A stretch of DNA of 45,076 nt, taken from Candidatus Saccharimonadota bacterium. Lineage in GTDB: Bacteria > Patescibacteriota > Saccharimonadia > Saccharimonadales > Saccharimonadaceae. The stretch covers positions 1 to 45,076 of the forward strand of contig JAFWLE010000003.1 in assembly GCA_017511205.1 (NCBI GenBank), in the 5' to 3' direction. The translations under genes and the position numbers were made by a program. Below are positions 7,962 through 10,117 of this stretch, piece by piece (within the stretch, counting starts at the first letter, position 1; every line of letters starts with the position of its first letter). The notes beneath the pieces are model-generated. The model had not been told where the DNA came from. It saw nothing but the letters and a program-made list of their open reading frames with translations, and did no database searches.

Positions 7962-10064
7962 CTACTCATAAACCGGCAAATCATCTGGAAACGGGTCAAA
8001 ATCTGATTCCTCAAAATCGTCCGAATAATCTTTAAAGCCGTCACCATCTTCATCTTTATATCCCGCTGAACCATACGGATTATACCCTAGCTCCGTCAAA
8101 AATCTCGACGGCATATTATAATTCCTCGAACCATACGAATACCTCGACGCCGCATAAGTTAAATACAACTTTTTCATCGCACGCGTCATCCCCACATAAG
8201 CTAAACGTCTTTCCTCTTCCATCTCTTCTTCTTTTTCTGCCGCTCTGCCACCTGGGAAGAGCCCCTCTTCCATCCCTACTATGAATACCACCGGAAATTC
8301 CAAACCCTTTGCTGCGTGAAGTGTCATCAAAGTCACCGCATTTTTCGCGGTTTTTTCATCTGCCGACGACATCAAACTCGCATCCGCCAAGAAGTTTTCC
8401 AAACTATCATATTCCGCCGCCTGCGTCCCTAAAACCTCCAAGTTTTTCATTCTTTCTTCACTACTCGGTGTACCATCGTCCGTTAACTTTTTAAAATCAA
8501 AATATTCAATTAGCCGCTTAATTATCTCTCCCGGGTTTTCATCCAACTTCACCGATTTCAAAAAGTCAATTAGCTTTAATAAACCTTTCCTGGCCTTCGC
8601 CGCATTCAACACTTCCGGCAAATCTTCGTTAAAAAGCGGCTTTTCGTCTTTTATGGCATCCATACCAGCCAAAACCTTTGCAAGCGATACTTCTCCAATT
8701 CCTGAAAGTACATTCGAAGCTACCCGCGCTAGGCTAACCTTGTCCCGCTGGTCTACCACTAGTCTCAAAATCGCCAGAACATCCTTCACCTCCTTCCGAT
8801 CATAAAATCTCACTCCACCCACAATCTTATAAGGAACCTGCATATTCATAAACGCTTTTTCAAACGCATACGACTGTGCATTCGTCCGATAGAGAATCGC
8901 AAAATCCGATAAATCCGGATAATCCTTCTGCAAATGCAAAATCTGTAACGCTACGTAATTTGCCTCAGCATTTTCGTCCTGCAAGGACTCAATATCCACT
9001 GGCTCACCTTTCCCCTCTTTCGTAAACAAAGTCTTTTCCGTCCGCATCTTATTCTCGTTAATAATTTTTTGCGAAGCCGCCAAAATATTTCCCGTCGAAC
9101 GATAATTTTGCTCCAGTTTTATGACTTTCGCTCCCGGAAAATCTTTTTCAAAATTCAAAATATTAGTAAAATCCGCCCCCCGCCACGAATAAATTGACTG
9201 CCAATCATCTCCCACCACGCAAATATTCCGTTTTTCATTCACTAGAAGTCTTACAATATTGTACTGTACGACGTTCGTATCCTGATATTCATCAATCAGA
9301 ATATGTTCAAATCTGTCTTGCCATTTTTTTCGAATTTCCGGAAAACTTTTCAAAAGCTCCAATTCATATAATAATAAATCATCAAAATCGAGCGCTTCTG
9401 CCTTCTTCTTCTCAGCCTCATACGCATAAAAAATCTTGGCGATTTTCTTCTGATTCGGGTAAAGTGCTTTCATTTCATATTCTTCTGGCCCATTTCCCTG
9501 GTTTTTCTCACTAGAAATAATTGCCTGAATCGATTTCGGCTTCAAACTTTTATCGTCCGTAAATTTCAAATCCTTCATAATTCGTCGGACCAACGAAACC
9601 TGATCGTCCGTATCGTAAATCACGAAATTCCGATCCAAGTTTAACGCCTCCGCCTCCTGTCTCAAAATCTTCACTGCAATTCCATGAAACGTCCCCATAT
9701 AAGGCATAAATGAACGTGGGGGCTCAGTGGAATTTGTTACAAGATGTTCTCGGGGCGCTCCGGAGGTTACGACCGAGGTAGCGAGGGGCGCTCCGCCCGT
9801 GACGACGGGCCGGAGCGACCCCGTCCCCGAAACATTTTGTAACAAATTCCATAACCTTTCCCGCATTTCATTTGCCGCCTTATTGGTAAACGTTACCGCG
9901 AGAATATGTGACGGCTGCACACCTTGAGTAATCAGATTCGCAATCCTATGAGTCAAAGTTTTAGTTTTTCCTGATCCCGCTCCAGCCAAAATTAAAAGCG
10001 GCCCCGAAAGACATTCCACTGCTTCTTTTTGTTGCTCATTCAAACCGTCTAAAATATCATTCAC
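7962..10064 (-). CDS. pcrA: UvrD/PcrA-type superfamily 1 DNA helicase with in-frame palindromic insert
   Basis: 3'-5' helicase for nucleotide excision repair and clearing replication forks. Motif I AGAGSGKT is at about 28-35, motif Ia has TFTNKAANEM, motif II is DEYQDTN, motif III is VVGDDWQSIYSWRGAD, motif IV has LEQNYRS, and motifs V-VI have TLHAAKGLEF and RRLAYVGMTRA. The protein ends in an acidic tail. Between motif Ia and TFHGI the family has about 15-20 residues; here there are about 55, the excess being coded by a GC-rich palindrome at 9728-9851. Start: GTG 10064 lies exactly 6 bases after TATAAT (10071-10076, minus strand), which suggests a leaderless mRNA; TTG 10067 is less likely. 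Confidence 0.93.
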   Translation of the reverse strand: MNDILDGLNEQQKEAVECLSGPLLILAGAGSGKTKTLTHRIANLITQGVQPSHILAVTFTNKAANEMRERLWNLLQNVSGTGSLRPVVTGGAPLATSVVTSGAPREHLVTNSTEPPRSFMPYMGTFHGIAVKILRQEAEALNLDRNFVIYDTDDQVSLVRRIMKDLKFTDDKSLKPKSIQAIISSEKNQGNGPEEYEMKALYPNQKKIAKIFYAYEAEKKKAEALDFDDLLLYELELLKSFPEIRKKWQDRFEHILIDEYQDTNVVQYNIVRLLVNEKRNICVVGDDWQSIYSWRGADFTNILNFEKDFPGAKVIKLEQNYRSTGNILAASQKIINENKMRTEKTLFTKEGKGEPVDIESLQDENAEANYVALQILHLQKDYPDLSDFAILYRTNAQSYAFEKAFMNMQVPYKIVGGVRFYDRKEVKDVLAILRLVVDQRDKVSLARVASNVLSGIGEVSLAKVLAGMDAIKDEKPLFNEDLPEVLNAAKARKGLLKLIDFLKSVKLDENPGEIIKRLIEYFDFKKLTDDGTPSSEERMKNLEVLGTQAAEYDSLENFLADASLMSSADEKTAKNAVTLMTLHAAKGLEFPVVFIVGMEEGLFPGGRAAEKEEEMEEERRLAYVGMTRAMKKLYLTYAASRYSYGSRNYNMPSRFLTELGYNPYGSAGYKDEDGDGFKDYSDDFEESDFDPFPDDLPVYE
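9728..9851. repeat. GC-rich palindromic element inserted in frame in pcrA
   Basis: The outer inverted repeat pairs 9728-9754 with 9825-9851: 15 bp perfect, then one mismatch and a small indel. Inside, GGGGCGCTCCG occurs twice in direct orientation (9752 and 9785), and the second copy pairs with the GGAGCGACCCC-type sequence at 9812-9822. GC content is clearly above the flanking gene. Both strands are open across it. On the helicase strand it adds about 41 Ser/Thr/Gly/Pro-rich residues at about 73-114. It is analogous in form to the Rickettsia palindromic elements that insert in genes. Confidence 0.85.
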
Positions 10065-10070
10065 CAAATT

Positions 10071-10076
10071 ATTATA
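10071..10076 (-). promoter_or_regulatory. pcrA -10 box, leaderless spacing
   Basis: TATAAT on the minus strand, 6 bases before the GTG at 10064. It fixes the start choice and predicts transcription beginning at the start codon. Confidence 0.65.
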
Positions 10077-10117
10077 GCAAAATTCAAACCGTAATTCACT
10101 TTTCTTTCTAGCAAAAA

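Follow-up and report, generated by a model that had tools for sequence, protein, structure and literature searches.

The window analysed here, the first 45,076 nucleotides of contig JAFWLE010000003.1 of a Candidatus Saccharibacteria genome (G000), carries on its minus strand a gene for a UvrD/PcrA-type helicase whose top NCBIfam match is TIGR01073 (pcrA), at a score under the equivalog cut-off, and within that gene, in frame, lies a palindrome of 124 nt (9728-9851). The plus strand of the element is the plus strand of the window, and the features are as follows.

7962-10067, minus strand: host gene pcrA, coding for a UvrD/PcrA-type helicase of 701 aa, its frame uninterrupted by the insert
9728-9749, plus strand: left outer arm, 22 nt (one extra nucleotide), newly made by inverted copying of the native right arm, missing in empty pcrA orthologs (e.g. 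L190 of G081)
9750-9830, plus strand: mobile element proper, TCGGGG...CCCCGA, a GC-rich core with a predicted three-way junction, 25 matches in its own genome
9750-9755, plus strand: P1, element side, TCGGGG, pairing with 9825-9830
9760-9778, plus strand: P2 hairpin, CC-GGA-GGT-TACG-ACC-GA-GG, nearly invariant among aligned copies, tip TNACGA
9785-9822, plus strand: P3 hairpin with bulged A and C, tip TNACGA, its stem sequence variable and covarying
9825-9830, plus strand: right end of the element, CCCCGA
9831-9851, plus strand: right outer arm, 21 nt, native pcrA sequence homologous to empty sites (e.g. L190), from which the left arm was copied

An initial annotation of this DNA had described a GC-rich palindromic element lying in frame in pcrA, and the palindrome is real: the DNA of 9728-9851 folds at -50.1 kcal/mol versus -21.8 kcal/mol for dinucleotide shuffles (z = -10.2, 0 of 200), the RNA of the other strand folds with z = -7.9, the GC content is about 61% against about 41% in the surroundings, and the 701-aa frame is kept. 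The segments 9728-9757 and 9822-9851 are 83% complementary without gaps, the internal repeats that had been reported correspond to a 22-nt direct repeat (GGGGCGCTCCG...) at 9752 and 9785, and the strand opposite pcrA is also open across the insert, as had been stated, in an ORF of 66 aa. The proposed element length of about 124 bases holds for the palindrome but not for the inserted part, which amounts to only about 99 nt, as one of the arms (21 nt) belongs to the host. In the protein, 71 residues separate the same flanking motifs compared with 38 in the closest uninterrupted ortholog (+33), and in the AlphaFold model the inserted residues 80-112 have pLDDT below 50 and are predicted to be disordered, between a helix (62-79) and the GTFHG motif (125-129), with the adjacent helices well predicted.

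Our main result concerns the arms, which had been taken for terminal inverted repeats of the element; comparison of sequences shows that they are instead an inverted duplication of target DNA, lying outside the mobile element itself. Between copies at different loci the outer arms are unalike (7.7 of 22 positions identical, compared with 15.2 of 16 in the core), and within a copy they pair, with a run of at least 6 in 94% of copies versus 12% for swapped partners. Only about 6 nt on each side are shared at the ends (GAGGGG...CCCCGA type), and neither the conserved terminal inverted repeats typical of MITEs nor arms common to copies in the manner of Rickettsia palindromic elements (RPEs) were found. 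The sister of G000, genome G081 (support 97/92), whose PcrA is 86-87% identical, has an empty site that reads ...CTATGGAAAATATTACAAGATACGTCTGATGAGCC in gene direction, where G000 has instead TTATGGAATTTGTTACAAAATGTTTC, the core, GAGAACATCTTGTAACAAATTCCA and then CTGAGCC; the arm at 9831-9851 is therefore native and the arm at 9728-9749 is its inverted copy. The same was seen in LepA of G034 (L030), in which the element has the opposite orientation to the gene and the right arm is again native, containing the conserved TRA codons, so that at both of these single-copy empty sites, in pcrA and in LepA L030, the native arm is on one side only. Further lepA and ileS copies agree with a native right arm, in linkers too variable for proof. 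In the PcrA tree the three inserted rows need three changes, with L001 and L024 each next to an empty sister; compensatory arm evolution between pcrA of G000 and G001 was considered and dropped because the tree makes them separate insertions. Insertion into hairpins that were already there, such as terminators, which would make the arms older than the element, could account for the many intergenic copies right at gene ends, yet no pre-existing inverted repeat is present in the empty pcrA sites or in the empty der and ileS linkers, which refutes this explanation for pcrA and leaves it hardly credible in general.

The core itself behaves as a conserved structure. The P3 stem varies freely, yet double changes that preserve pairing occur in 11 of 20 consensus pairs, and a GA/GA tandem mismatch that is seen at P1 in many other copies also replaces pairs in part of the P3 stems. 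These mismatches would read TC/TC on the opposite strand, and folding is better for the plus strand in 138 of 142 copies (RNA parameters) and in 137 of 142 (DNA parameters); we infer that this strand is the one on which selection works, as RNA or as single-stranded DNA. A known structured RNA family was ruled out by a search of 9500-10100 with Rfam covariance models, which gave no match up to E = 1.

The initial annotation had also proposed a mobile multi-copy element that survives in genes by staying translatable, with relatives that lack the insert and copies at other loci. This was borne out on both counts, by empty pcrA sites (e.g. G081) and by a covariance model of the core, built from 32 copies, which has 25 matches in the 0.8-Mb genome G000 and finds copies in 110 of 118 genomes of its genus, a group of ruminant-gut Ca. 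Saccharibacteria, with 1 to at least 36 matches each. In the rest of the order the core was detected in 3 of 131 other sampled genera, one of these weakly, and the named records that contain it are of Candidatus Saccharibacteria only, mostly from ruminant guts. Two family members lie adjacent and in opposite orientation in three genomes of the sister genus g32 (L355-L357). Viral contigs, phages and plasmids in the searched collections gave no match to the core, and a phage or plasmid origin was ruled out on this basis. Among open-licence papers, we found none that deals with elements of this kind in Saccharibacteria or Patescibacteria.

Of the 142 copies that were analysed, 99 sit within a spanning open frame of 200 aa or more, and these frames belong to about 35 gene families; the hosts include PcrA, Der, LepA, IleRS, ValRS, AlaRS, PheT, UvrB, GyrA, TrmD, GatA and TsaD, all names other than PcrA being our own reading of the sequences. 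Since both orientations to the genes and four main reading phases are used, no conserved peptide is encoded. The remaining copies, about a third, appear intergenic, and many of those are situated right at gene ends. A role at the RNA level, as a self-excising intron or as a translational bypass hairpin that is removed or skipped in the mRNA, would suit the strong covarying structure and the long arms, which bring the flanks together; it is very improbable given that copies occur in both gene orientations, that 99 of them leave a frame of 200 aa or more open, that about a third are intergenic and that Rfam holds no match.

Some genes have been struck more than once. Different palindromes have repeatedly entered the pcrA loop and the der linker, ileS of G000 (L010/L011) holds the element twice within one gene (IleRS), and a TsaD-like gene of G016 (L040) has two copies, at 1513 and 2185, with nearly the same arms, as if one had been copied with its flanks. 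In lepA of G078, G018, G077 and G062 (L414-L417) the gene is split into two ORFs at a palindrome hotspot, with unrelated genes between the halves (e.g. an aquaporin-like gene in L415), and coordinates suggest similar splits in G020, G023, G070, G071, G075, G011 and G030. An almost coreless palindrome of 25 nt lies in frame in the Der linker of G018 (L276) and may be an arm-only product or a remnant, and in pcrA of G079 (L222) a palindrome is accompanied by a TAG just before GTFHG, pointing to a decayed gene or a sequence error.

The insertion product is regular across the 142 copies, which were collected by a conserved search motif that makes no demand on the arms and favours well-preserved copies. 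In copies without indels the arm pairing holds at about 0.75-0.95 as far as 32 nt to the left of the core (L32) and is about 0.4 farther out; from this drop, and from the end of the element at GA...GA, an arm length of about 21 nt follows. The arms are perfect in several copies (e.g. L173, L127, L125), and a clear arm match is missing in only about 6%, though the search did not require one. We found no direct target-site duplication at the outer boundaries, where the longest shared run averages 3.84 compared with 3.72 for swapped partners. There is a weak target motif: purines come first in the native arm, with A at R22 in about 73%, and positions 11-12 of this arm are T in 60-82%. Copies in sense, antisense or intergenic settings show this preference alike. 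One-base bulges occur in many copies close to the middle of the arm, where the target motif also sits. The estimated insertion length varies modulo 3, so a built-in whole-codon length was rejected; the ends are probably imprecise, with selection retaining those insertions that preserve the reading frame. The regularity bears on a two-step origin, in which the core inserts alone and quasi-palindrome template switching during replication then grows and homogenises the arms. Template switching does yield perfect stems with a strand bias (PMC8794818, PMC6357072), as observed here, but apparently fresh copies have perfect arms that end at the same distance and copies without a clear arm match are rare even in a search indifferent to arms, and we consider such an origin rather unlikely.

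Insertion is also polar with respect to the chromosome. For 24 of the 25 copies in G000 the plus strand of the element lies on the strand with C-rich third codon positions (binomial p = 1.5e-6; the loci used for polarity are partly non-independent and p-values are indicative only), the sign of the third-position skew being the same for genes of both directions, and on contig C11, where the skew is opposite, the three copies are on the other strand. In other genomes the plus strand is on the C-rich strand at 77 of 90 loci, the GC3 skew at those 90 loci being -0.31 for genes on the plus strand and -0.30 for those on the minus strand. Since it is the C-rich strand and not gene direction that the copies track, insertion follows replication. 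The G-rich strand is the leading strand in most bacteria; if this assumption, carried over from other bacteria, applies to the Saccharibacteria, the strand that gains the core and the inverted arm at its 3' end would be the nascent leading strand.

The same architecture occurs with other cores. The same DNA contains further palindromes with unrelated middles and locus-specific arms, including a 12-member cluster with GGATATAAAGGCAAAATC... and another type with GGACTTGGCCAGAGCGGCC. Members of the former, a second family, are found at L243, L252, L253, L257, L345, L010, L011 and L016, with several copies in G000, and pcrA of G078 has a different core flanked by perfect arms of 25 nt. By our own reading of the sequences, the GA/GA junction at the arm-core boundary is common to several of these palindromes. 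The larger palindromes at L221 (pcrA of G072) and at L138 each apparently enclose a smaller segment with CGTCCCAAGGGGCGG. Because unrelated cores share one arm architecture, the mode of insertion is probably a property of shared machinery and not of any one core.

Searches for a mover covered the Y1_Tnp and reverse transcriptase families. Y1_Tnp (RAYT) was found in none of the sequences of G000 and in 1 of 40 genomes of the genus, with controls matched, and a RAYT/Y1 transposase as the mover was discarded on its absence from the element's own genome. This result weighs on the reading of an ordinary MITE- or REP-type element that is moved in trans by RAYT/Y1 or an IS and whose arms are its terminal inverted repeats: the small size, palindromic form, multiple copies, similar P2 and P3 tips and preferred target would all be expected of such an element, but the arms are locus-specific, direct target-site duplication was not seen, Y1_Tnp is nearly absent from the 40 genomes and phages and plasmids gave no match, and we regard this reading as unlikely. 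Reverse transcriptase genes are present in 26 of the 40 genomes. Those without a reverse transcriptase match hold as many copies (e.g. 26 in G060 and 20 in G003), and since copy number does not follow its presence a reverse transcriptase was rejected as the sole driver. On contig C7 of G000 (L315:1475-2605), a 376-aa reverse transcriptase, which has the motif IGNLTSQ, adjoins a 290-aa gene that has no Pfam or NCBIfam match; the enzyme would be DGR-like by our own reading of this motif rather than by a family model.

Weighing these explanations, we hold it to be slightly more likely than not that the insert belongs to a small, non-coding and palindromic kind of mobile element in Saccharibacteria, which duplicates about 21 nt of adjacent target in inverted form as it inserts. 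This reading builds on the folded core, the target-derived arms, the single-copy empty sites, the fixed arm length and the lack of direct duplication, as well as on the weak target preference, the replication orientation and the persistence in frame in essential genes. As for the mechanism, nascent 3' ends in E. coli fold back, preferentially on the leading strand (PMC6357072), which together with the polarity leads us to favour a route of copying followed by fold-back. The nascent leading strand (minus strand of the element) would pause at a target and its 3' end would be extended on the plus strand of the element, present as folded RNA or single-stranded DNA; the strand would then fold back on the P1 stem, copy about 21 nt of its own new sequence and return to the template. 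Inserts that break genes would be lost, while those made of whole open codons in loops could persist as selfish, nearly neutral DNA. The one-base arm bulges run counter to plain fold-back, which does not predict them, and the preferred target motif suggests a dedicated enzyme over accidental template switching. That the elements form a distinct mobile class, defined by a fixed-length (about 21 nt) inverted target duplication with one polarity at the fork and by several unrelated cores sharing machinery in Saccharibacteria, has in our estimate an even chance of being correct.

We know of no other mobile element at whose flank about 21 bases of the landing place are duplicated in inverted form. 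To our knowledge, palindromic elements inserted in frame have so far been mainly a Rickettsia curiosity whose way of moving is not worked out. The series described here is a much larger natural one, with 110 of 118 genomes, repeated insertions in the pcrA and der loops and empty neighbours; the insertion product itself is readable, through the inverted target copy and the replication polarity, and thus makes the mechanism testable. It also shows how selfish DNA goes on adding disordered loops to the essential proteins of reduced genomes.

Among known systems, MITEs (Correia, ERIC, RUP) are short, non-coding, multi-copy and palindromic, and are sometimes fused in frame (PMC2229807). They possess conserved terminal inverted repeats, often with TA ends, and direct target-site duplications, neither of which was seen for the Saccharibacteria element. 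REP/BIME sequences are hairpins with bulges and conserved tips and have single-strand polarity, features that the element shares; REPs are, however, intergenic and RAYT-dependent, whereas here Y1 is absent and most copies (99 of 142) lie in long ORFs. IS200/IS605 elements have single-stranded hairpin ends and a replication-linked orientation, and resemble the element in both respects, but they make no inverted target copy, and for the element no Y1 transposase or larger parent was seen. Template-switch (quasi-palindrome) mutations likewise produce a reverse-complement copy of neighbouring sequence with a preference for the leading strand (PMC6357072, PMC8794818). These are local events without a dispersed element, and local sequence alone does not explain the present case, in which the specific core of a dispersed family lies between arms of fixed length. 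The likeness to RPEs drawn in the initial annotation stands for the in-frame habit and falls for the arms, which are here target-derived. RPEs are palindromes of about 100-150 nt that fall into several families and lie, in frame, within numerous conserved genes unrelated to one another, in a reduced genome; no mobilising enzyme is known, their terminal inverted repeats are described as the element's own, and target duplication was left open (PMC10969869, PMC2229807). The Saccharibacteria element resembles them in palindrome size, in its several families and in its in-frame insertion in unrelated genes (99 of 142 copies, about 35 families), and is set apart from these descriptions by target-derived arms of about 21 nt, by its orientation with replication and by its occurrence in a different phylum.
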